A DNA stretch of 64,000 bases from Glandiceps talaboti (lineage: Eukaryota > Hemichordata > Enteropneusta > Spengelidae). Each line of letters starts with the position of its first letter. The stretch's first letter is position 1. The position numbers and the translations under genes are program-made. The stretch covers positions 3,141,001-3,205,000 of the forward strand of contig NC_135549.1 in the NCBI RefSeq assembly GCF_964340395.1, given 5' to 3'. The notes under the pieces are model-generated. The model worked only from the letters and a program-made list of their open reading frames with translations. It searched no databases and was not told where the DNA came from. Of this stretch, positions 7,778-48,239 are shown one piece after another.

Positions 7778-10700
7778 TTATTTCAATAAATTCTTAGTCC
7801 TATGCATTAAATAGATTCCAGATTGTAAGCCACCCTGGTTAATCCACAAAGTACGTCTATTTCTCCATATGTGTTTTAGTGATGATATCATCTGAAAAGA
7901 AAAAAAAAGAGAAGGAATTCAAGAAAAAACATAACTCGTATAGTGTGTAACTGCAGTCCTATTATAGTTTGGTGTTCAAAATGCAAATACACTACACATC
8001 TCAACTCTTCAGATCTGGGTATGTATGTTACAGAGTGGTAGAAGAGGTTAAATGGGACTATAGGTAACCACTAAATGTTCCCCATTATATGTAATAAGCA
8101 TTTACATGTTGTATTTATTGATCTTAATCTTATAGCTTTACTTCAATATATTGAGTCTTGCATGCAAAATGCATCTTATATTAATAAAGTTATTGAAAAT
8201 ATTGGGCCTATCATTGAAATATTGCACATCTAATTAAGCAGATTCAAGTCATATTTATGCCAAACAATTTTTATTTCCTGGTGGTTTCGACCACAGTGAT
8301 TATTTGTCTACACGAAATTTAGACATTGGGTAGCACACAGAAGTGCATGAAGTTTCACATATACCATACTGAGTCATGTTAGCACCCTCGCTCGAGCAAG
8401 GGCCCAGTACTTTCATTTCAGTAAGCTTTTTATTGTAAAGATTTGAGTCAACAGCCAAGCACATCCTCTCCATTGTCCAGTATTCAATACTGCTGCCAAG
8501 ATATTACCCATGTAAAGTTTTAGGTACTGACTAAAGTTTAGAAACTCAGCTTGTGTCACTTTAAGGTGACTGACTTTTAATTTGAACCTCTTACTTATTT
8601 CCCCATCAAGTGCATTTGATACAACAAAGTCGTTCAGCAAGATTTGAACCACACCTATACCCTGGTCTGCCAAGTCATACTAATGGGTACTTGGTAGGAT
8701 GTCATTGTTATGGAGTGGATTTATTCCAAAGATTGTATGCTCCCTGGGGAGTTGAGACGGTGTCAAAAGTTACACTGTTATGCCTTAGACAACCGACATA
8801 TCTGATTTATATGTCTATACAATGTTGTAAACCACAGGCCTCTTTATGGCACCTTCCTAAACGTACCCACTAAGAGGTATTTTTTTTCTCATTGCGACAG
8901 CAGAAAAAGTGTACTCTGTCTTGCTACAATGAGGTCTTTACCAAGGATAATTATTGTACAACACTATGAGCCTGACTTCATTGTTTAAAATCTCTTTATC
9001 AAAGTGAACGTTATACAAATATATGTTACCTTGGCCATACACTTTTTATCTTGTGTAAGGAGAACTGCTCTACCAGTATTTTCTCTACACACTCTAGCCA
9101 TCTCTACCATACCATTCCTATACAAGTCCCAGTTCTTCATCCTAGAACCACTCCTGAAATTCATACAGTATATAGATTTATAGGTAATGGAAAACCCTAA
9201 TTTTGTACCAACAAAAGTTTAACATTTTCTCACAATTTATACAATTGTTTGAATACTTTTGGTTTGACTATAAATTTCATAACAACATATCCATGATTTC
9301 AGTAATAGCAATTAATGGTTATACTTAGATAGATCAAAAACTGGTTTACACTATTAATTTCAGCATTTTCAATATCCCAATCATCGGTATTCCAGGTAAT
9401 ACACAAACAACTAGTCAAAGGGGAAGGATACCTTTTGAATTCACTATGTTTAATAACAATTTGGATGTTAAATAAGATAAAACGTGTCAGTTTCATTCAT
9501 TTTCACTTATCAGTACAGAGTTGGCAGATAGACCATTCAAAAATCTACATTTCAGGGCTCAAATTAACTTCTTCCTATGGTGGTCCAAGTGGACTACCAT
9601 TTTCAGAAATCGGTAGCCCAAAGATGGATTCATGAACTGAAAACAGAGGACCTCCATTAAAAATATATGTTATGAAATACTTCCATGTATGTAAAACCTG
9701 TCTTCTAAATCCCCACACTATCAGAAGTATCTTGAGCTGAGCTACCAGCTGCAAATTATGGTAGCCCCATAACAAGACTTGATATTCTGTGGATACGATA
9801 CTACTACAAATATCGTACTAGATTTGAGTACAGCACCTACCTTTTACCAAATGGCTGGAAAACAAAAGAGAAACGCTGATTACTATAGAATACATTCCTG
9901 CCTTCATTTTTTGGCTATCTTTTTATTTTCAGCTACTCCTTATTCTGATGAAAGTGCTTTCTTTCAAGATTTTTCTCATTGATTTACTAGCACTGGCTAC
10001 ACCAATCTGATTAAAATCCGACATCTACATCGGATTTTAATCAGATTGTGGCTACACTAAATGGCTAATGATTTCCATTGAAAATTGTGTTCCTGGAAAA
10101 GAAAACCACATGAACACAATTTGAGGAAATTATCTAGCTAAGCATACTATTCTGATGGCAAACAATGTATATAAATATGTTTAAATACTACTTACTGGGA
10201 CAACAAGAACTAGTTTTAAAATCACAATAAGTGTGTCTTCAATTACACTAATGCAAAATAATCTCTAGTCTTGTAATAAGACCACAGATCTACACTCAAA
10301 ATGTTAGTGAACAAAAGCTGAAGGTTGACAGTACCTCTGTTCACAGTCCCTATTGGACCTATAGCCACTTTTACAAGTCGGCACAATTGCTTGAGGGTTT
10401 AGCAGCTGGACTATGTAATCTCTTGTGAGCCACCAATTTTGTGTTTCCCTATACCTTACTATGTGGTGAGTCTGGTGACTCACAATAAAATCATTTCTTT
10501 ATCATGTTGATCCACAACAAAAAACATTGTCCTTTATTAGAAGGAACATACACAATGCTGTATTTAGTAACCAAATGATACAAATGCTTTCAATTTAGTA
10601 TGTATTGGAAATAGTCTTATCATAAACTTTTTTTTGGAAATGATTTACCTTGTACCTGTTTGATACCTTTATAGCAAAATATCTGGTACTTACCAAATCT

Positions 10701-11291
10701 GTCACAAACACGTCAACAGAATTTGTTTTCAGAGGTAAATTGCATATATCCCATTGTACGATATCTGTTTTTACTGGTAAACTGAAATTTAACAAAAATA
10801 TTCAGATTTAAAGAAATGGTTACTTGTATCAGTTTTTTTTCAAGGTTTGTCTCACTAAAGTACATTTTTCCAATTCAAAAAAAATAAACCCAATGCCAAA
10901 TGAACACAAACTCTCTGTGAAGATATTAATTTGTGTACCTTTTGAATTATACATGTTGTAAATACATGGAACTCGACTTTAGTAACACACACCAACATTT
11001 TGACTCACCTGTTCTGTTTCATTCTCCTTTCATTGATAGCTTCAATATTCTTAAATGAAAGTGAACATGGATATTCATCTATATCCCCACAAAGATGAAA
11101 ACTTTCAGACCAACATAAAGAACCCTGAAAAGAAAAAAATAGACAAGTTCAACAATCTTTTAATACTCTAAAAATGTATTAGATTGTTATACAAAGGTGA
11201 AAAGCCTGCATAATAAATGTTAGATCAAACTATCATCATCAATTTAAAAAAAACTTAGTGGAAATCAGTTTGAAAACTTCATATTAGTACT

Positions 11292-11331
<40 letters not shown>

Positions 11332-13345
11332 GGCGGATAGACAGACAGACAGACAGATAGACAGACGGACAGACAGACAGACAGATAGACAGATAGACAG
11401 ATAGACAGATAGACAGACATACACAGAGACAGACATTGATGGAAAAACTTACAGCGATCTTAATGGATATGTTATCATTATATTGTCTTCACATGACTGA
11501 CCCTACACCAATCTATTACATTCTATGAAATCACCAAAACACTAAATACTGAAAGTTACAATACCTCAATTGGTATAGCTCCGGTACCACACATTGGATC
11601 ACATACTACATCCCCAGGCTGAATCTCACCTAGCCTGCAAAGGAATTTGTTTTATCCAATCAAAGTCAGAATACTTTTACATGTTGTGAGTATACCATCT
11701 TGTTATAAAGTCTTATTAATCATTGGTATTATTAAATCATAAATGAAAGAATTGAAGAAATTTGAAGAATCACCTCTATCATTTGACAACATGAAAAAGT
11801 TATAATTATGACAAGTTTCAAAGTGTGCACTTAGGTTGAAAGAGATACTGTAAACCTAGATATATTCACTACTAGAAAATTTGACGATTTTACAGTTTTC
11901 AGCTAGCTTTCAAAGACTAATTTTTACTAGTTACAAGAAGGCATTTTCGTCACAACTTATTTTCATATTTTTGTTTTTCAGTAAATCTTTAGCGAAAATT
12001 TCCAGGTTTACAGTATACAGCTGCTAATCAGTGATATGTGATAATGGAAAGGTTTCCTAGATCTTACCTCATCATCATGTATGCAAGTGTAGCTTTCAGT
12101 GTTGTTGATCCAAAGTGTGTTATATTCCTCCTGTGCATACTCTCCCTAGTCAGTGAAATGCCAACCTGAATATCATTATCTAATATATTCAGTAACACTT
12201 CAATATCAGCATTTGACAAATCAACACGCCACTTGAAGTTATCATTTATACTACCACCAAATTGACAGGCAGCTTCAGGAGACGAAAAACTGTGCTTTTT
12301 ACCAACTCTATGACAGGTAACACGAAATGTAGGCATTGATGATGGTTCTAGTTTACTACATTCCTCTACAGTGGCAGCTACATTCTTCTCATAGTGACTA
12401 TATGCCTTCCAGAAGGCAAGGGCATTTAACCAGTCAATTTCTGTCACCAAACTTATCAGCGATTTCATATCAGCCTCCTACAAAGATAATAAAATAACTC
12501 TTGATATATAGCAGAAGTGTGAACAATGAATGTTATAGATGAATATGTGATAATATGACAAAACCCTATGATGAGTGAGCACAAGTGTGACAATGATATA
12601 CTTGAGGTATTATCATGAATGCTTGCAATGTTCTCTGCATCTATATTTACACTTGTAAGCAAGGCGAGTCAAACTGCAGCAGAAAACACTGCAAGCACAG
12701 GTGCAAATATACCTGAGTACCACATTGATATGCACACATTATCTGTTATCATTTCACATTTAATCCCAAACAGCAAAATTCTATAAAAATCATACTGCGC
12801 AATAACAAAATTAAATATGAAAAGACTCATTTGAATATGCAAATTATGTTTTCAGTTTTGCACTGCAAAATGGCATTAGTATGTGTGTGCACCAATACAA
12901 TTAGTCACTGGAGACTCTTCATTGTCTATAGTTCAGACACAATAATATTTACTTGACCTGAAAAGAGCTACTATTCTGAGTATCCACTTTTTATAAATTC
13001 AAGAAAAATGATGTCATCTTACCTTTTCACCCATGAAGCCATAGTCTTTCAGCTCTTTGACTACAACAAACAGGTTCTCCACCCCTCGAAGTGAGTCTAA
13101 CTGCAATATTAAAGACAAAAATGTCTAAATGCTATTACCTATATATTATTGCTATAAACAGATAACCTTGTATGGGTTTCCAAAAAACTTATAAAATTTG
13201 ATTCTACATAATTATAATCATTACCTTGACTGATCAAGAAACAATCTTCTTGATCAATCCCTTCTTATGACTTACTAAAAACAGTTGTTTATATTGTGGA
13301 AGATGATGATGATGATGATGATGATGGTGATGGTGGTGGTGGTGG

Positions 13346-13382
<37 letters not shown>

Positions 13383-13729
13383 GAAATAAACAAAAACAAA
13401 TAAACAAGTGGACAACAAAGCGTTTGTGAGTGTTAAATATATTTTCTTTGCTCTTGACTTGTTTGTTCATATGTTTGTTTAACTTTTGTTATGATGATTT
13501 TAAGATTTACCTTCGGAACATCTTGATGAAGGAGATCAAAATACATTCTCCCTCTCCCTGGCCTGCCTTCCACGGAGAGTTTCTCTTTGCATTCGTCACA
13601 AGCAAGCTTCTCAAGTCCTGTTGGAACTGTCGCTCCGACGGTAGCTACTGGGGATATCGAAGTGTCATGTGAAATACTTGCAGGCTCTGCAGACTTGGCT
13701 GTCACGTTTCCTTCTGTAGGGGCTGCCAT
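7778..13729 (-). CDS. THUMPD3: THUMPD3, tRNA guanosine N2-methyltransferase, complete, nine exons, 410 aa
   Basis: Exons (minus strand): 13729-13511, 13100-13023, 12477-12068, 11634-11565, 11124-11009, 10781-10694, 9854-9841, 9153-9030, 7891-7778; all join in phase through GT-AG introns. In vertebrates THUMPD3 with TRMT112 makes N2-methylguanosine at tRNA positions 6 and 7. Visible are an ATVPTGLEKLACDE start of the THUMP region, the FRVTCHRVGKKHSF and RRNITHFG blocks (exon 3), the SAM-binding DPMCGTGAIP (about residues 248-257), VQWDICNLPL, the catalytic-loop DLPFG (326-330), the NTGRAVLLTQD strand, and a WRN/LWINQGGL end. At 410 residues it is about 100 shorter than human because the Lys-rich loop in the THUMP region is missing. 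The start before MAAPTEG has a good context; an in-frame ATG lies 12 codons upstream. Confidence 0.95.
8637..8790 (+). repeat. Diverged fragment of the tRNA-type SINE seen at 37837-38202
   Basis: Within the last THUMPD3 intron this segment shares blocks in the same order with the middle of the SINE at 37837: GCAAGATTTGAACCAC, a 'CTTGGTAGGATGT' block, and 'GATTGTATGCTCCCTGGGGA'. The tRNA-like head and the 3' tail are missing, so it is an old truncated copy. Confidence 0.7.
9841..9854 (-). other. THUMPD3: THUMPD3 exon 7, a 14-nt microexon coding PFGK
   Basis: Between exon 6, which ends in VTDL at 10694, and exon 8, which starts in mid-codon at 9153, the only sequence that restores frame and the family motif is a 14-nt exon. 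On the minus strand it reads CCATTTGGTAAAAG, flanked by TTTTCCAG and GTAGGTGC. Joined, the junctions read DL-PFGK-R-SGSRMKNW, matching the family DLPFGKR block. The four codons include three residues of the catalytic motif IV. Confidence 0.9.
9994..10057. mobile_element. 46-bp palindromic MITE-like insertion with perfect 9-bp flanking repeats
   Basis: Two 19-bp arms, 10003-10021 (CAATCTGATTAAAATCCGA) and 10030-10048, are perfect reverse complements around an 8-nt spacer. They are flanked on both sides by the identical 9-mer TGGCTACAC (9994-10002 and 10049-10057), which is what a target-site duplication looks like. It sits in the THUMPD3 intron between exon 6 and the microexon. A 9-bp duplication would fit Mutator-like transposases, but family assignment is inference. 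Confidence 0.75.
11291..11435. repeat. (GACA)n/(GATA)n microsatellite in THUMPD3 intron 4
   Basis: Tandem GACA units with scattered GATA variants run for about 145 bp between the exons at 11565 and 11124. Simple repeat, no coding potential. Confidence 0.95.
13301..13378. repeat. (GAT)n trinucleotide repeat with a central (GGT)n block, THUMPD3 intron 1
   Basis: About 78 bp of GAT/GGT triplets. On the minus strand it reads as a run of His codons (ATC/ACC shifted frame gives CAT/CAC), which makes a spurious reading frame; it lies inside the intron between 13511 and 13100. Confidence 0.95.
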
Positions 13730-16900: not shown

Positions 16901-19226
16901 TGTTTGTTATTGTACATACAATTGTATTTATTAAATGTTTTACAATTTATTGAGTTACAAACACAGACTTAGTCTATTTTGTTTCACATTGATTTTTCAA
17001 TTATGAAGCCATGATAAAATTGTTTTATGACCAAAATGAATACTCAATCGTCATCCATATGGCCACTTTAAAAAACATGATGTTTGTCAATTTTTTTTTT
17101 TTACATGTAAACTCAAAGAATAATAGGCAGATCAGGTTGAGATGTGTATTTTCAAAGGAATCAATGTGGGGTTGTTGGGGGAAAGTTTCCATTTCTTTGT
17201 CATCATTTCTCTGTCTGTATATATATACATGTATTTATGCTACTGGCATAATAAAAGAAATCTCATACTTTTGCCATTCTTACATTCCACAGATTTCGAA
17301 CAGGGCCGGGTGTGATTCCCAGCAAAGCACCAATTGACACAAAATATCTCATACTTATTGTCAATGGAAGGATCCAAGATAAAGTTGATTTTGCACAATT
17401 ATGGCTAGATCATCTGAAAGAAATGCCATATCTACAGAAAGTAGCAGTGATTATGCTAGGAAATGAGCAGTGTGATAATGATTGGTTTGTACCCTATACA
17501 AGACAGTATGGTGGACCAGTTGATCAGCTCTTCATTACTTATGACAGTCCTGCAATAAATCATATAAATATCCATCCATGGCCGCTAGGAGTTGCTACGT
17601 AAGTACAATACAAGTTTAACAACAGTTTGTGGGCCTTGCCTGAATGATTGAGGGGGTGCTAACACGGTTCAAAATGATATTACAGAACCCTATGGCTCTC
17701 ACTGTTGAAGTGTCAGTGTGGTGTACTTGGTTTAATAGGTGTATTCATATGATTTTCTCTGGGGTTACTATCTGCAACAGCAGCAAATACCTAAACTAGC
17801 TATCACACATAATTGGGTTCTGTTGTTATCACATATGTGTATCTGAAACTGAAAGTTTTATGTGAATTTTAAATGTGCTTTCACATGATATTTGTAAACA
17901 CTTATGCAAGTAATTTCTGGTGCATATGTACTAGTGGAATTTATTTTGTTTTAATTGTTTTTGAGCAGGTATCGTGGTTTCAGTCTTGTCCAAGCCAACT
18001 TACCAGATGTACTACAGCCAAGACCCTTCGTGTGCAATTTCCTTGGTACAGTCTATATCAACTCATCCCGACAGTCTCTCATGAACATTCTTGAAGACAA
18101 CTCATTTCAAGATAAGTGCTTCATCAAAGCCAGAAAAGTGTAGGTTTTATTGTTGTACCATATCAAATACCATGCTTAGATGTATTATCTAATGTGATCA
18201 ATGTCATTTTCTCTATTCTGTCTAGCTGAGGTGGCAAATTTTGCATTTGATGTCTATAAGCTTTTCACAGAGATACTTTGGTTGGCTTAATATCCTTTAC
18301 CTGTATTATATGAGTATGGTAAAGAACATCTCTCGGAAATGACTAATGAACAAAATGAATTTACAAATGTTAAACCCAACCCTTTCCAACTCCTAATTTG
18401 CAAGCTGGTTTAGATATTATTCCCCAATATTTTTCTTTGTTCAGCCAAGGAAAATGCAAGTGACCTAAGGGGCCATTGTCACAAGTTGCCAGATGAGTAG
18501 TGACAACCCTTAGGCCCTGAGTATTTTCTGGCTGAATGGAGAAAAATATTGGAGAATAACATAATTATACCATCACCAGTAACATAAAAAATAATAGGGG
18601 AAAGTAATGGCAATTTTAAGTGTTTTGACTCATATTCAGAACACAGCAGAACCAATGTTGTACATGCATTGTCATGACGTAGAACAACCATAGTATATAT
18701 TCCATATTTTTTGTTGAACCTGGCTTGTACATGGTATAATGACATGTCTTGTACGGTCAGTCACTCTTTGATTCATTTTGAATAACATTTAGCTCTGTTA
18801 TTTCACAGATGGGAACCTAATGAAAATGACCAGACAAGACAACAATATGAATTTGCATTGTCGCAAAGTGACCTTACACTGTGCCCAGTAGGGGTAAACT
18901 CCGAATGTTACAGGATATATGAAGCCTGTGCATATGGATCCATTCCAGTCATTGAAGACATAATGACACCAGGAAGATGTGGCAACTCAACCTCCTGTCA
19001 GAATTCACCTCTGTGCTTCCTTAAATCGATGCGTGCTCCTTTCATTTTTATCAAAGACTGGAAAGAACTCACAGGAATTCTGCAAACAGAATCCAAGATG
19101 ACTCAGAGAGAAAAGATAGAGAGGAGAAAAACTCTAGTTGAGTGGTATAGAGATTTTAGAAGTAATGTGAAAGAAGACTTTTTAAACATTTTACAGAAGA
19201 GTTTCTTCACAGAAGTAGTCACATGA
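13972..19226 (+). CDS. RXYLT1: RXYLT1 (TMEM5), ribitol beta-1,4-xylosyltransferase, complete, six exons, 445 aa
   Basis: Exons 13972-14107, 15549-15755, 16440-16539, 17293-17598, 17969-18139 and 18809-19226 join in phase to 445 residues (human 443). In vertebrates this Golgi enzyme adds xylose to ribitol-phosphate on alpha-dystroglycan core M3, priming matriglycan. Residues about 6-27 form a single N-terminal membrane anchor (type II topology). Shared blocks are [100 protein letters not shown] (exostosin-like active-site region) and MRAPFIFIKDWKEL. Exon 5 ends in AAAGT|GTAGGT; the nearby GTGTAG is not used because it would break frame. AATAAA lies at 19286-19291. Introns hold two foldback elements. 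Confidence 0.95.
14108..15548 (+). other. RXYLT1: RXYLT1 intron 1 (1.4 kb) with a strong hairpin
   Basis: No exon-like reading frame is seen on either strand. At 14434-14462 there is a perfect 14-bp inverted repeat around a single C, and an outer 17-bp copy of the left arm at 14416-14432 also pairs with 14449-14465, so two alternative hairpins compete for one right arm. Confidence 0.7.
16743..17070. mobile_element. Foldback (MITE-like) element of about 330 bp in RXYLT1 intron 3
   Basis: The left arm 16743-16876 and right arm 16952-17070 are imperfect reverse complements over about 120-130 bp, with identical stretches such as TCATAAAACAATTTTATCAT, CATATGGATGA and CTGTGTTTGTAACTC. The 75-bp centre has no coding potential. 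Small indels between the arms show it is not recent. A clear target-site duplication was not found. Confidence 0.8.
18417..18560. mobile_element. Second foldback element, about 145 bp, in RXYLT1 intron 5
   Basis: Left arm 18417-18482 and right arm 18500-18560 are reverse complements with few differences, sharing CCAATATTTTTCT, TTCAGCCA, GGCCTAAGG-like and TTGTCAC blocks, separated by 17 bp. It has no coding potential. The arms are unrelated to those of the element at 16743-17070. Confidence 0.75.
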
Positions 19227-32134: not shown

Positions 32135-35100
32135 ATGTGTGTTAAAGTCTGTGTGTGAGTGTGAATGTGTGTGTGTGTGTGTGCATGTGTGTGTGCGTGC
32201 ATATGTTCAAGTCTCTGTGTGCATGTGTGTGAAGTCTGTGTGTGTGTTTGAATGCTAAAGTCCACTTATTTGTGAATACTAAAAAAATGTGTTTGATAAT
32301 TTGTAAAAACAAGTCATGAAAATAGATGACCTGTATTTCCTGAAATCTTATTCAATATGAATAAACCACTCTATTTTCATGCATTGAAAATCCACTGTAT
32401 ATAATAGCTCTATGAAGTACTTACGTGGACATCAGTGCTTTCATACTTGAGTTGTGACATTTCTGTCTGGGTATTTGATAGCCTACAACATAAAGATATA
32501 TTACATATGAAAAAGTTGTAAGAAATTATTGACTGAAACTGTTCATTGTCTACTCTACATTGTATACATAATCAAATACCAATAAAAGCAATGTCAAGAC
32601 CTGCATAACATATTATGTACAATGTATCTCAATTCTAATAAATTCATCAACCCATCAAAACATACACTCATGTACATACACACAGACACAGACACTCATG
32701 TACATACACACAGACACAGACACTCATGTACATACACACAGACACTCATGTACATACACACAGACACAGACACTCATGTACATACACACAGACACAGACA
32801 CTCATGTACATACACACAGACACTCATGTACATACACACAGACACAGACACTAATGTACATACACACAGACACAGACACTCATGTACATACACACAGACA
32901 CAGACACTCATGTACATACACACAGACACTCATGTACATACACACAGACACAGACACTAATGTACATACACACAGACACAGACACTCATGTACATACACA
33001 CAGACACAGACACAGACACTCATGTACATACACACAGACACATACACTCATGTACATACATACATACACACAGACAGACAGAGGCACTCATGTACATACA
33101 CAATTATGTTAGTTTTGAAGTCAAGGATATTAACTTGTTACAAAATAGCCTACCTGTCTGATGCAGCTTCAAACCTAGTTTCAATTTTAACACGGTCCTC
33201 CTATAAAACAAACGAGTTGTATGTGAAGTTAGAACGTCATATAAATCATGGTGCATTATGGGTACTAACTAGCTTTTAACACGGTCCTCCTATAAAACAA
33301 ATGGGTTGTATGTGAAGTTAGCACGTCAGATATATCATGGTGCATTATGGGTACTAACTAGCATGGACTCCATGCTGTCCTTTTCTACACATGCCATTTA
33401 TTTTTACAGATTTTAATGCTCCATTTTTGAAAACAAATTGGATGTTGCTGATAAAGTGCATTGTTGTGAGTAATCGACTCTAATCACATCATTTCACCTG
33501 AATCAATGATTTGTGCACTATGACTACGATATATAGTATATTGAGTTGATGGACTATTCAATGGCCCATCAATGGAGAGAACTCCATGTCTTACATGTAA
33601 AACAACCTTTTGTCAAATGATGAAAACATTTTCATGTTTGAGGTAAAAATAAGTATTGGCCATGTCCCCACATAGAAAGCAGAGTTTAACTAAATGAATA
33701 AAATTTCCATAGTCAAATGTTCAGCTGAAGTTTCTCTATGAACACAAGTATGTAGATTCCCTTTCTTTTAATAGCACCACTCTCTAAGTGTTTTTGCTGG
33801 CAATACTCAATTCTGAATCAAGTCTATAATTTCTTGGCCAAAGTGTTAATGAAAGAATCAGCGGAAATAAAGACAGTGCTATTTCATCTACTGTCCCTTA
33901 CCTTTTCTTTCATGAGTTCTTTTTGAACACTGTCCAGCATGGATTTTCTCTGTTCAAGTTCCCTCTGTGCAGACGATAACATACCAGTACGTTCAGTCAA
34001 TTGAAGATTGGTTAAATGTAACTGTGAAATGAAAAGTAAATCAGTCAGACAATTCAAATATCAATTAACCAACCAACCAACCAACCAACCAACCAACCAA
34101 CCAACCAACCAACCAAGCCATCCATCCACTTACCAACCCGTCACCTACCCATCCGCCATCCATCCATCCATCTATCCAACTAACCAATCAACAAATCAAA
34201 GCCACCAACCAACCCATCAACCAACCAACCACCCAACCAACCAACCCACCCAACCAACCCACCCAACAAACCAACCAACCCACCACCCACCCAACAAACC
34301 AATCAATTCATCAATCAACTAATCATTATTAGTTGGATATAAAACTGAATCTCTGGAATTACTTCTCAAAGTAGGCTAATTCATATTAAAATTTGTTTAC
34401 CTCATGTTCTAGACTTTTGACTCGGCTCTCTGCTGACCCTAGAGTCTGTGATTTACTCTGTGAAAAGGGAAGAAAGGAAGAAATTCTTTACAATCCTATA
34501 CTGCTCAGTCTTCATTACATGTATCACTTGGATTTCACTGTTTTGAGAAATGTCACAGATATTTTAAAGAAAAATTCTGTTGATATGGGGGGGGGGGGGG
34601 GTGTGTGTTAGAATTACTTTGTATGTAAACATATATAATATATATAGGGAACTCTGTATGTGTGTGGTGTGTGTGTGTGTGGGGGGGGGGGGTAGAATTA
34701 CTTGGTATAACACTACAAAGTATTTAATAAAGAGATATTACTTGAACGCTTGACCTGAGTTATTCCTTAGCTGTCATGCAAATAATTTATTTTTATGACA
34801 AATATGGCTACCATTTGTCTAAAGTTGAAAATATAACAAAACCAAAGATCTTGTATATGCCCAGGAAGGTATGTCACCTTTGTACAAAGTTTGAATGAAT
34901 TTGGCAGTTTAGTGTCAGAGATACAGGTGCAAACTGATGCAATGATAAAGGCCAATGTACAATGTAGTATTCCCCTATTGACTTTGCCTGTGTGTGTGTG
35001 GAGGGGGGGGGGGGATAATCAAGCTTGAAAGATCACTATCTATCCTATCCTATCCTATCCTATCCTATCCTTGTGTCCATATCATCAACACTGACCTGAA

Positions 35101-37564: not shown

Positions 37565-40500
37565 GTCTGTCTGTCTGTCTGTCTGTCTACTATTCTACAT
37601 TCTTGCCAGTAAGACAAATCAACCTGCATGTTACCAAATCCTACTGCTATCCCTAAAGTAACCGCCACTCCCTAGCTTGATCATAAATGTGCATTAATTG
37701 TAGAGTATAGTCTGTTCTCTGTTCTCAGTACTCTTACTTGATGTACACCACAGAGTACATCATCCTTGCCAGATTTCAACTCAAAGTGCTCACTGTTCGC
37801 CTCATACATTTTCTGGCTTTACTTATTTGTGGAGTCATGATGGGTGAATGGTTAGCGTGACCGGCTTGGAATCTACAGGTTGCAGGTTCGAGCCCTGTCG
37901 CTGCCTGCTGTTTGTTTCTGAGTGGCTAAAGTCCTTGGGCAAGATTTGAACCACGACTGTGTTTCAGTCAACCCAGCTGTATAATTGGGGACCTGGTAGG
38001 ATGTAGGTTGCAATGTGAAGGCTTTAATCCTATGCGCTGAAATGGCTGCAATGGATTGTATGCTCCCCGGGGAGTTGAGGAAGACTAAAGGGCCGTTGTG
38101 CCGTTCTGATCCGAGCCAGGGGTAATAAATTGTAAGGCACTTTGAGCACGGTGTGGGAAAGCGCTATATAAGAACCCAACATTATTATTATTATTATTAT
38201 TTCTGACTTGTGTTTGTTAAAGTTCTAAAACCAGGAAAAGGAGAAATTCTCTGTCACTGCAAAGTTTAATCCACCATGATTTTATCCATAAGTCTGGTTG
38301 GAAATTTTGTAGTCTTCACAACTCTGTCAGATTGTACAATCTTATATTCTGCCCTACAGTAGCTACATCATGTATATAGTGAGAGTATCATTATAGCTTT
38401 TAGATTCCAGAATTCTGTGTGCATTTTTCAATTTTACTTACAATATCACTTCTCAGTTCTTCAATTCTGTTGTTTAGTTCTTCATTTTCTACGGCAAGCA
38501 TGCCCTGATCATCTTTATACCTCATTCTTACTCTTTCAAGCTCCATCTGAGGAAAGTAACACAAACAATAAAACCATGTATGATGTCACAATTGTACACA
38601 AATCCTCAAAACTGTACACTACATGATCATAGAAGTCATCAGAATCTCTACCATACAGTGCGCATAATTAAACCAGGATCCATTCAATAGCAAATGTCTA
38701 CACGTCTTAACAATAGTTTTAGTTTGTGTCTATCTAAAGTAAGCCAAAACCTTGATTCGATTGCCACTGTTGTAACTCACCTTGAGCCCATAGAGTTCAG
38801 CTTTAAGACGATCACTTTGATCAAGTGCAAACTTGCGGTTTTCATCAGCTGATTCTAATCGGCTGAAGATCTCAGCCTGCAGAATAGTAAACAAAACAAC
38901 AACAACAACCAATATTAGAAAATAGGTAAAGTAATGTTTGGGCCAGACAACGCCTAACATAACATGTACGTACAACACAACTGTTTGCCAAGAACAAATA
39001 CATGTACCAATAAGTGCAAGCAATGAGTATACAAAGAGATGAAAATTAAGCATGATAGAAAAATTACACAGGGCAGACATCTTGGTTATAAAATATATGT
39101 TAGTTATACAATATATTAAGTGTTTCTTAATAGTGGCATATTTCTAGACAAAGGATCTAGGATTAATGGAAAACAACACAAGATACCGGTAGGATAAAAC
39201 CAAGTTGATCAAATTTATTATCATGCATGAATCTATACAACAAGTGACTCTACATTCACTGTACAGTGATACCGTGCAAACAACATATACTGTAAGATAA
39301 GAAGACAGCCATGCAATATTTACAGTATTAAAATCTGGTAATACTAGAATGTGTCTCGATTTATACATAATACATGTATATATATTAGAGAACCATATTA
39401 ACAATTGGAAGAATACACAAAGAGTGAGTTAATAATTCTATATAGCTTGGTTGTGCTATGTTATGTTTTGATACCTTTTCTTCTTCAAAGCGTTCAACGT
39501 CCTGTAAACACACACACAGACAGTAAGCAGTACAAGGAGAGGAGGATAAAAAAATGCAAAGTCAGCATAAATTGTATTAATGTTGAGTGAATGGCGAGAA
39601 AAGTGAAAAGCAGTAAATTTGACTTCTTTTATTGTATTACCGTACAGAAAGAGTTTATTGGTTTAGTAATAAGTCACAGTGTTTTACTTGTTCTCTTGTG
39701 TTATGTTTTTTTTTGTTCAATTAAGCTTTTATAAGACTACCAGGATGGTCTTGCTGAGGAAATCTATGAATACGTCTTGGCTCAAGCCATCTAATAATGA
39801 CATATCTCAATATATCTGTTACATTTCAATCTTTAGACACCTTGAGATGGTTGGCATGACTGATGGGTAATACATACTACATGTCATATTATTTACTTTG
39901 TATTACTGAACCCAACCAATAAGTTTGTGAAATTTGGCATTTGCATTTCAGTGATACTGACAGTGAAGTCATCAACAAAATTATTGATAACAATTATGAA
40001 TAAATATGGTAATCAGTGAAGATAAACAAGTCTCAATTCAGACAGAGACCATATTGATAGACAGCAGTGTTCTCCCTGGATTTTACCCAAGCATCACAGT
40101 TAATTTACAGATTAAATGAATGTTGTGTTATGCAAATGAGTTTCATTTGCTTTCCTACATTTCAAGTATGTTGTTTGACATGTTTAAATATCCCTTGGGA
40201 GAACACTAGACCTAAAAGCCCCAACACTACTAGGTAGTAGCCATTTGTGGCTTACTATGAATATCACTAAAGTTTTCAACTTGAAATGTAGTCATTTTGC
40301 ATACTTTGTACAACTACATTTATCTAGTGATAACTCCTGTTTTCTGTTACAGAGAACAGGTTGTAAAATGGAGTAATCTTTATAACTTGAGTCTTCTGTT
40401 CTCACACAACTCAACAAGTAGCAAATTCACATAAAAAGCTTATTTGAGGGGTCGGCTCTTACAATGATGACAGAAGTCAATGATAACGGAAAACAATGTA

Positions 40501-43500
40501 AACAACCCATTATTACAATGTTGATAACAATTGAAACATAACTACTGTTTAGTTTTGCTATTCACCAAACTTGATATCACATGATTTGCAGAGTGACCAC
40601 AAAAACTAAACTTTAATGAATTCTTATCAAGATGCTGACATGACATATTGTCACTGATTCTGACACAAGTGAAAAATAGTGACCAAAAAGATTCATCAAA
40701 TAGGACACTCATGATCATGTCATGGGTTGTAGATTTTTGTCAAGTAAAACTCTATTGCCCAGCATTCATTTCTCTCACTTCATCTAATAATAATAAAATG
40801 AAACCAATTCACTATTTGCAATTTGGAGTATTCAATTTTTCTGACCTGTTGAAGGGCATCTTGTACTTTGGAATGGTCTTGATTCAACTGTTCCTGGATA
40901 GTACGAGCACTGCGTTCATGGGCAAGTTCTTTGCGAGCCTCACTTTTATCTTCTTCCAACTATTGAGATAAAAAAGGGGACATACATCTTATTTTCCATA
41001 CTTTCCTTGATACATGTGTGTTGACTGGGATGACCCATAGTGGGACAAGTCACAACTTGTAAGTTGATGTTTATTTTAAGGAGACATAGAGATTGAAGAG
41101 CTTATTGTTTAATTTTAAACTTGTTACTTGAATAGCTCCTACCAGCTAAGGATTTCTAACAATACAATAAAATACCCAGTCTGACTTGACTAGCCATATA
41201 TTTATTAATGTTATGACATTTCAATGTGACAATACCAGTAGTATGTAAAGGAATGCCATTACCGGTATGAACTGAAGACAAATTGTACCGTGTGCAGGGT
41301 GTACAATATTACATAAAGTCATGTAACAAGACAGTTGCAGCTAGTGCATTTTCAATTCATCTTCACTATCTCTTACCTGTTTGATTGTAGTAAGGGCTTC
41401 ACGAAGTTCCATTTGTAAAGTTCTACTGGACAACTCTAATTTCTGTCTGGCTTCTAACTCCCTGTAAGTTACAAATAGATACATGCAGGCAATATGATCA
41501 TACAGTATGGTATATTAACTTAAAATAGAGTACCCGCCTTTAAATAGTTAATCTAAAAACGATATGACAAAAGATGTCCTTAAGTATCTAAATTAAATAT
41601 GTTCTACACCAATAACAAATTGATAAAACGAATGTGTGAAAATGTGTTGGGAAAAGTAGATACAATAGGTGTCAATACCCTTTGAAATCTTGTAATATAC
41701 AAAAAACACATCATATCAAGTTAAAGCCTGGTACTCTAAAGCCAGACTAAGTCACACTTCAGTAAGTTGTAATATTGGCCACATTGCAAAGGTCTTTCCT
41801 ATCAAAATGCTCTGACAATTTCTATAGGAGTAGATATGGCAGCCACTAGTTAGTAAACAACTACTATCTATCAATGAATCAATATTGCAATGACTTTCCT
41901 ACACACTTTCTGAGGTTGTAACATTTGATTAGTTGTGATTTTGATGTGGATGTCACCAACCATGATTGTACATGGAGCTACGGCCAGTCACACAAACTAC
42001 TGACCTCTGCATTCACACACAAGGCAGTAATACCAGTCACTTACTGTATGTACTGTTGTTCCTTCCTATCTAGCTGGTCTTTGGTTTTTGTGAAAAGACT
42101 TTCAGCACTGCTTGCCTTTTCTGTTTCTTCTGTCAGCTTGTAACTACAAAACATGATACAGAAAGTCTAAAATTATTTTCTGACACAACTTTGTCTTTTT
42201 CAAAACATTGTTGTATTATTTTATGTAGTCTCCAGTGTAAAGCTAATGAATTAGCCTAAACAGTTTATTGCCTCCAATATTTCCAAGGTGACTTTATTTT
42301 CATTTCTACTGAATTGTAAGGTGAGTTTCAGTCTTAGAAAAGGCACAAATACATGTATTGCCTAAAAAAAATTATACGGTTGAAGTATTTCTATGTTTTA
42401 CCCTTACTTGATATTTCTGACTTTGGTTTCCAGCTCCATCTTCTCTTGTTCTAGTGTAGTTTTAGAATGAGATAACTTGTCAATTTTCCTGTTGAAATTA
42501 ATAATAACAACATACACTGATAAGTTAATATAGTCTATATGGATACTACTACACTATGCAAACAATTTGGATTCTTTTATGATGTAATGATCTAAATTAA
42601 ATTGTTCAATTAAAAATACAAAGTTGGACAATAATGAGATAATTATTATGATGTAATAATTCATGGTATTGTAATCGATAATACTTATTTTTTTCTCTCT
42701 ACTTAGGTGGGCCAGATTATTACTGCTTCTCTGCAATTAGTAAGTTGTTTCTCCATGATTCTCTCATACGACTCATTTTAATGTTAGACAAAATCATAGG
42801 GTTTATTGTTATTCATGAAGTTACATCAAATTTTGGTCTACAATAAACACAAAAATAGACAACTCTAAAGAAAGACGCCACTGAAAACCAAGAGTTTAAG
42901 TTATCTAAGTCATGTATATATCCTACTTGCCTTTCAAGGTCAGATTTTTCCATTTCTAATTTCCTGATCCTGGTTTCTATGGTAATTCTAGAACTCCTCT
43001 CCTTGTCAATTTGTCTCTTGTGATCTCGCAGTGTCTCTTGCATTTGTACAACCATGTTTGGATCTGTAGTTCCTGTTACAATCATAAAAATGTAATTTTC
43101 TCCTTCTTGTGCTGATTCCATGCATTAATGAAATGAAACCAGGGATCAAAGTTTCCCTGTTCACTTTTCTATTTGATAACTTTTTACAATTCTGAAAGCG
43201 AAAGGACATCTGGAGGAAGCAGTGCATAAACTTCCCAGAGATAACAATCATACAATAGATAAAGCCAGGAAGAATCACTTTATTGGTAAGGTTTGTTGTG
43301 GATATATGGATTTCTGAAATGGGTATGAAAGATTATGACAAAGCTACATGAAACGTTTTTTTTTTATAATTGTCATTAAATAAAAATTACTACTCACAGA
43401 ACCAAAAAATTCCTTCAAGTATTTCTTAATTACTTTTTGACTCTGTGAGTAGATATTTTCATTTGACACTATGAACTCAGTGTCTATGGACATCCATTTT

Positions 43501-46500
43501 CGTTATTATTGTCACTAGATTTACATACATCATTGTCAATTTCAACCAGTTTTACTACATGATGAAAGCGTCAGTACTTGATGAAATGATACCAGTATTA
43601 TCCAGCTGAAGGTGACAAATAATTATGGATATGACTTACAACAACATTTGACATCAACATTCAAAGTATCTTGAGAATTAACATGTTTTAAAGTGTATGA
43701 TCTTAATGACCTTATGACCTTTAACATGACCTTTGACCCATACCTGATGGAGGTGGAGGTGATGTCACAGATTTAGGTAATGGAGTTGAAACATATGAAT
43801 GTATTCCATCACCTTCAGTGTCTGTGTCAGAGAAAGACAAACCGTCAGCTTCCTCCGTCAACATTTGTTTCCAACTCTGAGAAAAGAAATTTGAATGTTT
43901 CAAATAAAGTCAACATTATGAAACTTTGTGAGAAGGGGAATACAGTGTGTACATTTGGGATAAATGGAAATACAGCTGCAAAACTAATCATGAGTAAGAC
44001 CGCTGTTTTCTGAAAGTGTCTGCAGTTTAGGTTTTGTATGATCAATCAAGTGAAATTAACAACACAGTATCATTCTATGGTGTATATATAGTGATAACAC
44101 TAAACCCTCCTGTTATTGGGCAATGACTGTTAGATAGTAAATAAAATAAACAAATGAATAAATAAATAGATAAATAAATAAATAAAGATATAACATTGGT
44201 AGGTAGAGCTGTGGACCATGATAGCCTGTGATATGTTTTTGATTAGATATCTCTTAATGTGAATTATGTACAATCAAAATCTCAATTTCAAATTAACAAT
44301 TTTATTCTTGTGTTGCTATCTGCTGTAACTATAAATTGTAAATGAGTATGTCTATGCTGTAAAAGTGATGACAATCTCCAATTCCTCTACAACTGTTCAA
44401 TTTTCTACCTTTTATAAATCAAACACTGATAATAAATTTGAAATGATAATACTTTCTATCTTCTCATTACAAACAGACTTCTAAATCTATTACATAAAGT
44501 TGATCCACATATATCGTACTCATCTGGTTTACTCAAATGACTAAAGTCAGACTTACTGGATTTGCAGAACCAGGTGTGTACGGTTGCCGTGGTGATATTG
44601 ATCTGTTAGAAAAACCACTTGAGGGTCTGCAAAGGAAAACACAGATTTCCTAGATTGTAAGATTTCAGAGTCAAGCCCAAGAATCTGGCTTTGTAAATTC
44701 AGCATGATATTTATACAATATCTTGTCCTCTGGATGATCGACAATGACTAACTCAAAAGCAGTTGTCTTTATGTTGTGAATTTCAAATATGAATAAATAA
44801 TTGGGTAATAGTATAATATCTGATTACAAATTTACCTGAATGGAACGGGTGATGGTTGATTACTCCAACTATCACTGGCACTGTCATCAAAATCATTTAT
44901 CTTATCATCATAGCTTTTATGGAACTGTTCAGCAATTCTTTTTCTCTCCAATTCTCTTTTCCTTTCTTGCTCAATCATGTCTTCTTCTAACTTTCTCTTT
45001 TCCTCCTCAAGTTTACGTTGATTTTCCCTCCATTTTTCTTCCTGTTTCTTCTGTTCTTCTTGTCGTCTTTTCTCTGCTTCCCATCTTTCCTCATCCATTT
45101 TCCTCCTCCTTTCTGCATTCCGTCTCTCTTCCTCAGCCATTCTTTTCCTATCTTCTTCTTCTCGTTGTCGTCTCTCTTCCTCCAGCCTTTGAAAGTTTGC
45201 CCTCCGCCTTTCCTCATCTCTCTTTCGTTCTTCTTCTCTCCGCCTCTCTTCTTCCTGTCTTATCTTTTCCTCCTCTCGTTTTCTTTCTGCCTCTCTCTTC
45301 CTTTCTTCTTCTTGTCTTTTCCGCATATCATCATCTTGTTGTATTCTCTCCTCTTCAAGTCTCTGTCTTTCCTTCTCTTTCTGTTCTGTCTCTTCCTTCT
45401 CAAGGGCTTCTCTCAACTCTCTCTCCTCTCTATCTTTCTTTTCTTGATCTTCTTTCTCCCACTGGAGCATTCTCTGTTTTTCCTTTTCCTCATCTTCTTT
45501 CAATTGTTTCTCTAGTTCCTTCCGTTCCTAGAATTAATAAAAAAAGGGAATGTATTAGCTATAAATGATATACTGTTTATTAGCAAGAGTTCTAAACTCT
45601 GATGATGGTTTGTTTTATGGGGTAGGTGTTAGCTGCCCTTTCTGAAATAAGACAGCTCATTAAAGTCTGTATTTAAAATTTACCAACACATGTTATTATA
45701 CTACTTTTAATAATTTCTTAATAAGATAACTTGAAGACTGAATACATATGAAACAGATCCTGACATTTTAAATACCATTTTTATTATTTCTACCTTTTCA
45801 GCTTTTCTTTCCTTTTCCCATTCACTCTCAGTTTCCTCTGTTTCATCATCCTCTGAGAAATCAACGACATCTTCACTACGGGGTGATTTAGGACCAGTCA
45901 AGTGGATGGCTTGTTTAGTTGGAACTGTACTCTCTTTGCCTAGTGGTATAGCCTTTGGAGAACTTTTAGCAATTGGATCAGCACGTGGTGTGCTAGCTGC
46001 ACTGCTAGCAAATGGATAGCCACGAGGTGTACTCACTGCACTGCCACCTGTGATGTGAAATTAGAAATGAACACAAGATGTGGTGAAATCAACATATCAG
46101 TAAATGAACAGGATATTTCAGACTGAGTGGAAACAAAGAAAATCATGTTGTAATACTTATAGCCACATTTGTTTTGTCTATAATGATGCACAAATATCAT
46201 AACACATCAATTACAAACTGGGATAATGTATGCAACACCACACAATAATGACTACTGCTACGAATGGTGTTTTACCTTTTCTGCTGGAGGCATGAGATGG
46301 TAGAAGATCAGTATCTGAATCCCAGTCATCATCTGGAAAGAAAATCAACGAATCAACGTTAATGACAATTTCAAAGATGATTGGGAGTTCACTGTGACAT
46401 GACTTTGTCAAAGATGATTGGGAGTTCACTCAGTGACATGACTTTGTCAAAGATGATTGGGAGTTCACTCAGTGACATGACTTTGCCAAAGTTGTGAATA

Positions 46501-48239
46501 TAAAAGACTATGTATCGTACTGAAGATAGTTTTCCTTGTTTTCTATATATTTCTTTTCTTCTTCAAATTACTGCTTTGTGACAAACAATTTCAGTCAATT
46601 CTACCAATTTGTGCAAGAAAGCATATCTAATGTTGTTCATTTTTGTAATTTAGGCAGAGTGACACAAGAGAGTCAGCTGTCATTTATAGACACAATCCAT
46701 CTTGCCATGTATTCACCTCCCACAAAGTGTTTGAATGACTCATACAATTCATGACCTAATCATGTTGTATGATGCAAAGTTCACATTAATTAGCATAGAT
46801 TGAGAAGTAGCATATGTCTGAGAGAAAAGAATTGTGAGCAATGAGCAACTATTCTTCAGCTATGGGGAAAATGAACATTCTGTACACTCATAGGTCAGAT
46901 ACAAATTGGAACAGACTTTTCCAAATGTATGACAGGACTATTTACTAAATTAATTGCTGCCACAATTTATCAAGAATGATGTGAGAACTAGCCCATCTCA
47001 ATATATATGGGTAAATATACATATCAAAGACATCAAATACAGATATTCTGAGCTTTGATCACTGACAATGACATCACAAAGGGAAAAGGGTGATTCTTCA
47101 TCAGCCTGCTATATTCCAGGTTTACTATGTACACCTAATATAACACTACTGAGTGAGTCTAACTTACCATCTTCATCATCATCATCTTTTGGTTTGTTGA
47201 TTTTAGCTGGTGTAGTTTTCATGTCAATATCACCTTGATTCTGCAATGGACACAAGACAACACTCTTTACACTTTACATATGAAGGCATATATATAGGCT
47301 GACAGCAACAACACGTGATAAAAAGTATGGCATGTATTGTACATGTAATCAAGATACAGTCCTATTTTCCTTACAAACAGACAAACACAGCTAAACATTC
47401 AAAATACAAAATACATATACCTTTAACATAGAGTAAATGCTGACTTCTAGACGTTAAAATCTGGAGTGGTTAAACTTGAATAAGGGCAAATATACACAGA
47501 TTAAAAATTTTGAAAGAAGCATAACTTATAGTGGAAACCTATTCTGTTGTAAGTAACAAGAGAATATTAGTTTGTCTTAGGTTTTGATCTTTGTATCTGT
47601 TTATATTAGAGTTCATAAAATACTGGTACATCAACGGCCACTCACTTATTTGTAAATTATTCATGTGGGACAAAACAATACAACTAACATTCAAATGTAC
47701 AGAACCGTGTCCTGACACTAACAATATGTCCAAACATGTTTAACACCCACAAAAAATGTAAAGGTGAGAAATGCATTCAGATTTCCTAAGTAGAAGCATT
47801 GTCAAATGAATTCATAGAGTCTATCTTGTAGATTGTTATTACAGGACTTCAATTATGTATGTTTACTGAGAGATACTTTAACTTTAGCTTAGATTTGAGA
47901 AAGTATTAATAATTGAGTGTACTCACAGGATTACCAGTTCTCATAACAGGTGGATAGTGAGTTGTTGGTGATTTTGGGTCATCATCTTCCATCATTGGGA
48001 TTACATCCATCTGAGAATCATCCTCATCAAAGTCAATATCATCTACATCATCTAGTCCCAACTCTGCGGCAAATGCTGATGGTTGACAGAAAACAGAAAT
48101 CAAGTTGAGATGGGTGATAAACAGATTGAATAAACCTGTTACAGTAAGATATCACTCAGAACGTTTTAAAGAAAACTTACCTGGTGTATGTTAACCAAAT
48201 GACAAGAAATTCACATATACACACATACAAATACACATA

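Follow-up and report, generated by a model that had tools for sequence, protein, structure and literature searches.

A 14-nt microexon, probably constitutive, in a THUMPD3-type methyltransferase gene of the hemichordate Glandiceps talaboti

The stretch of Glandiceps talaboti DNA analyzed here, referred to as the window, is 64,000 nt long (contig NC_135549.1, positions 3,141,001 to 3,205,000) and contains no N. On its minus strand, we delineated a coding region of nine exons that runs from an ATG at 13729 to a TAA at 7780-7778 (Table 1). When joined, these exons form a frame of 410 codons with no internal stop, and all eight introns start with GT and end with AG. A Pfam search with the 410-amino-acid product returned a THUMP domain (34.7 bits; cut-off, 20.6) and a UPF0020 methyltransferase domain (120.5 bits; cut-off, 22.3), and the DPMCGTGA sequence encoded by coding exon 4 is presumably the SAM-site motif. 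The plus strand carries exons of RXYLT1 (ribitol xylosyltransferase) at 17255-17602 and 18786-19226 (Pfam RXYLT1_N, 1.1e-34; RXYLT1_C, 6.5e-61), and an 89-bp unit is tandemly duplicated at 33185-33362 with 94% matches. A tRNA gene search and an Rfam search at the gathering threshold returned no matches.

Table 1. Exons, introns 6 and 7, and microexon splice sites of the minus-strand gene, in transcript order (window positions; the slash marks the exon-intron border)
Feature	Position	Strand	Remarks	Source
Coding exon 1	13511..13729	-	Starts with ATG	
Coding exon 2	13023..13100	-		
Coding exon 3	12068..12477	-	THUMP domain	Pfam
Coding exon 4	11565..11634	-	DPMCGTGA motif	
Coding exon 5	11009..11124	-		
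Coding exon 6	10694..10781	-	Last residues, D-L of putative motif IV	
Intron 6	9855..10693	-	839 nt	
Microexon acceptor and polypyrimidine tract	9855..9874	-	GTTTCTCTTTTGTTTTCCAG; 15 pyrimidines in -20..-4	
Exon 7 (microexon)	9841..9854	-	14 nt, CCATTTGGTAAAAG; codons for P, F, G and K plus 2 bases of R	
Microexon donor	9835..9843	-	AAG/GTAGGT; 8/9 U1 positions matched	
Intron 7	9154..9840	-	687 nt	
Coding exon 8	9030..9153	-		
Coding exon 9	7778..7891	-	Up to TAA 7780-7778	

The order of the two domains, with THUMP followed by a UPF0020-type methyltransferase domain, is that of the THUMPD3/Trm14/TrmN m2G6 methyltransferases and places the product in this group. A search of solved structures gave seven matches, none of them named THUMPD3. 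The best of these was archaeal Trm14, a tRNA guanine-N2 methyltransferase (3tlj, 8.1e-13), followed by 3tma (6.3e-12). The match to the archaeal G10 enzyme was weaker (9.3e-7), and the protein is thus nearer to the position-6 than to the position-10 (Trm11) enzymes. The parts of a published account drawn on here list TrmN, to which structure 3tma belongs, Trm14, and THUMPD3-TRMT112 as the position-6 group (PMC9957541). A 173-amino-acid query gave 21 pattern matches in bacterial and archaeal contigs and 1 match in viral contigs, none of which was confirmed; both collections are uninformative on conservation among animals. The choice of the name THUMPD3 over THUMPD2 is a tentative one, guided by the human sequences. 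The human THUMPD3 protein has about 507 amino acids, compared with 410 for the product described here. Taken together, these features suggest that the gene encodes an animal THUMPD3-type tRNA m2G methyltransferase, and the probability that we attach to this assignment is given below, jointly with that of the splicing pattern.

The reading frame enters exon 7 in phase 0 and exon 8 in phase 2. With 10694 spliced to 9854, and 9841 to 9153, the product reads ...VDVFVTDL-PFGK-(R)SGSRMKNW... in a single open frame, and the DLPFGK loop aligns opposite NLPYGLK of Trm14. By its sequence, exon 7 is a microexon, that is, an internal exon of at most 51 nt with splice sites on both sides, here with AG and GT borders and a restored frame. 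A first-pass annotation of this DNA had proposed such an exon at these coordinates on the minus strand, with the same borders, frame, and motif and with flanking introns of about 840 and 690 bp, and our computation reproduced all of this. One of its two junctions, 9153/9841, was likewise confirmed, but the other, 9855/10694, is off by one base, since 9855 is the last base of the intron and the exon starts at 9854. It had also described the exon as carrying the catalytic motif, with four codons of the active-site DLPFG(K) loop. The PFGK residues are indeed encoded there, whereas D and L end exon 6; hence, the microexon holds only part of the motif and lacks its acidic residue. Motif IV is given as (N/D)PP(Y/F/W), and as (A/S/N)(L/I/V)P(Y/F) in dimethylating RNA enzymes, in the sections of PMC3814359 used here. 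In our own reading, DLPF would correspond to this motif.

A segment this short could be a chance AG-x-GT match, in which case there would be no exon here and the gene would be spliced otherwise, broken, or misassembled at this point. Frame restoration alone does not set the exon apart from such matches: the 1,540-nt interval between exon 6 and exon 8 contains 297 AG-x-GT segments of 1 to 45 nt, 52 of which restore an open frame. However, just 1 of these 52 segments yields the motif, and P[FYWH]G has no second occurrence in the interval, whichever of the three transcribed-strand frames is read. The UPF0020 score was 122.5 bits with PFGK, 103.0 bits with the residues of a different frame-restoring 14-nt segment, and 69.7 bits for the skipped product. 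We also randomized the interval by dinucleotide shuffling 20,000 times and considered frame-restoring AG-x-GT segments of 2 to 32 nt. A stop-free P[FYW]G directly after DL arose in 71 shuffles (10 of them with a 14-nt segment), and in 295 shuffles, a frame-restoring pair was present in which neither site was weaker than its real counterpart. The motif and both sites were combined in one segment in none of the 20,000 shuffles, where about 1 would be expected from multiplying the two rates. In a looser count of 3,000 shuffles that ignored site strength, 77 had P[FY]G within about 10 residues upstream of exon 8, and 4 had DLP[FY]G with no more than 3 residues between. As, in addition, no N occurs in the window and the rest of the gene's exons, eight in number, are undamaged and keep the frame, we consider a chance match very improbable. 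Judged by these features, the 14-nt exon looks real.

Two alternative ways of obtaining the motif were tried and rejected. A search for another exon as the source of PFGK among the 297 segments returned only the 14-nt exon. The second was a shifted exon 8 acceptor that would rescue skipping; none of the AG sites between 60 nt upstream and 119 nt downstream of the exon 8 acceptor gives PFG. From nine of these positions, at least one frame can be read through exon 8 without a stop, and those at 9134 and 9101 regain the frame of the enzyme.

The strength of the splice sites was assessed with matrices built from the gene's other sites (6 donors and 6 acceptors, introns 6 and 7 being left out). Within the interval, the microexon acceptor ranked first among 98 AG sites and the donor third among 108 GT sites, and the two donors with higher scores are GT sites at 10648 and 10666, just downstream of exon 6. 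By leave-one-out scoring within the gene, with matrices that derive from few sites, the acceptor was seventh of eight and the donor third of eight, and the sites can therefore not be called unusually strong. The T content at positions -20 to -5 of the acceptor is 12/16, which is tied for second among the eight acceptors of the gene and is attained by 0.5% of its 4,159 intronic 16-mers.

Over the whole window and both strands, only three acceptor-donor pairs spaced 3 to 30 nt apart reach the scores of the microexon, which is itself one of them. A candidate microexon of 27 nt lies on the minus strand at 39475-39501 (DVERFEEEK in frame 1), and both its donor and its acceptor equal or exceed those of the 14-nt exon in strength. 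It sits among minus-strand open frames that resemble a coiled-coil protein (for example, 42813-43124 and 44832-45527), and a Pfam search with these surrounding frames gave no family above the cut-off. A 7-nt segment, AATCAAG, also on the minus strand (47234-47240), has equally strong flanking sites and may be due to chance.

The first-pass annotation had further reasoned that skipping of the exon removes the catalytic loop and shifts the frame and, thus, that the exon would act as an on/off switch for the enzyme. Skipping does remove PFGK and shift the frame, giving DL-EWF-stop with the stop at codon 331, but D-L is encoded by exon 6 and stays. This stop lies 112 nt upstream of the last exon junction of the skipped form; a stop more than 50 to 55 nt before the last junction usually leads to nonsense-mediated decay, and the skipped mRNA would therefore be expected to be degraded. 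Retention of intron 7 leads to an immediate stop (PFGKR-stop) and retention of intron 6 to a stop after 32 codons. However, among the seven internal coding exons (exons 2 to 8), six have lengths not divisible by 3, and a frame-shifting length is therefore not special to the 14-nt exon. The predicted harm from skipping could just as well mean strong selective pressure to include the exon as a potential site of control. The proposed role as a switch is thus not supported: it is possible but draws solely on the arithmetic of 14, and the sequence features discussed below lean in the other direction.

Microexons regulated by SRRM4 carry UGC just upstream of the acceptor, and those regulated by RBFOX have GCATG in their flanks. 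The nearest upstream TGC is at -138 of the microexon, with none closer, and downstream copies are found at +6 and +88; GCATG is absent from about 300 nt on either side, although both rules may not hold in this species. The exon therefore shows neither the SRRM4 nor the RBFOX pattern. As for PTBP1-type sequences near the microexon, CTCTCT does not occur and TCTT occurs once, 15 nt upstream. In the parts of PMC4317164 drawn on here, constitutive human micro-exons, as defined in human brain, have strong splice sites, T richness at 5 to 20 nt upstream, and shorter flanking introns, whereas alternative ones are without these features and show conservation of the flanking sequence, in which RBFOX and PTBP1 motifs occur. 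The T-rich tract, the donor matching 8 of 9 U1 positions, and the missing SRRM4 and RBFOX motifs thus lean toward constitutive use, and the low leave-one-out rank of the acceptor runs contrary to this.

It is conceivable that inclusion is instead tuned by tissue or condition, so that skipping would lead to a premature stop and decay (AS-NMD) and the exon would set the amount of active enzyme. Such regulation would fit the frame-shifting length, the predicted decay of the skipped form, and the acceptor score, and asymmetric alternative micro-exons have been proposed to act through nonsense-mediated decay (PMC4317164, in the parts used). Yet the frame shift is common to most internal exons of this gene, the tract is T rich, and regulatory motifs of the two kinds are absent nearby; we regard regulated inclusion as unlikely. 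A more far-reaching version, in which the exon would be an old, conserved splicing checkpoint whose regulated skipping leads to decay of THUMPD3 mRNA and ties tRNA m2G6/7 methylation and translation to the state of splicing, appears less likely still.

Intron 6 has a further feature that might affect splicing of the microexon and that counts against constitutive use. At 10003-10048, 148 nt upstream of the microexon, lies an inverted repeat whose 19-bp arms pair perfectly around an 8-nt loop. Direct repeats of 12 nt, nearly identical to each other, border it on either side (9994-10005 and 10049-10060). The 261-nt stretch with this hairpin folds at a z score of -4.9. The arrangement resembles a very small mobile element that duplicated its target site, and no further copies with up to 3 mismatches were found in the window.

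We therefore favor, with a probability of roughly 0.85, the reading that exon 7 is a constitutively spliced microexon within an animal THUMPD3-type tRNA m2G methyltransferase gene, an estimate that covers both the gene assignment and the mode of splicing. The spliceosome would routinely include exon 7, aided by the T-rich tract and the near-consensus donor, and D-L from exon 6 would be joined to PFGK and then to (R)SGSRMKNW from exon 8, building the substrate-coordinating loop of the enzyme. This presumes splicing as drawn here and inclusion in nearly all transcripts. The exon may have originated when two introns came to sit 14 nt apart within a conserved stretch, and AAAAG/G at its downstream border agrees with the sequence context in which introns typically insert. 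It is probably always used and, as such, is an easily missed detail of annotation rather than a proven switch.

If an annotation lacked exon 7, the enzyme of this animal would appear to have a shortened or disrupted active site and could be misread as lost or as a pseudogene. Gene callers designed to detect microexons could be tested cleanly on this exon, and where its two introns lie might be used as a character in phylogenetics; on its own, it opens no new biological question. A literature search that paired THUMPD3 with microexon or micro-exon found no paper, and the exon may nonetheless have been published.

The 14-nt exon is of the same kind as documented microexons, here in an animal gene. 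A constitutively spliced exon of only 6 nt is known (PMC4674806, in the part used here). Across ten plants, 2,398 microexons of up to 15 nt have been described, most of them unannotated, and annotation often misses this size class, as stated in the parts of PMC8831610 drawn on here; by this precedent, it is plausible that annotation would miss the 14-nt exon as well. According to the same parts, the 9-nt exons in plant genes for AP2 and invertase contribute residues to conserved motifs. The exon described here is similarly tiny and codes for residues of a conserved domain, but it differs from these plant exons in that it lies in an animal gene, is 14 nt long and asymmetric, and is known from genomic sequence. 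Constitutive micro-exons of up to 51 nt are reported from human brain transcripts, with a downstream intron median of 955 nt (PMC4317164, same parts). The exon of G. talaboti resembles them in its T-rich stretch from -20 to -5, its near-consensus donor, and a downstream intron that is shorter than this median, and it differs from them in that the matrix score of its acceptor is not high within its own gene.
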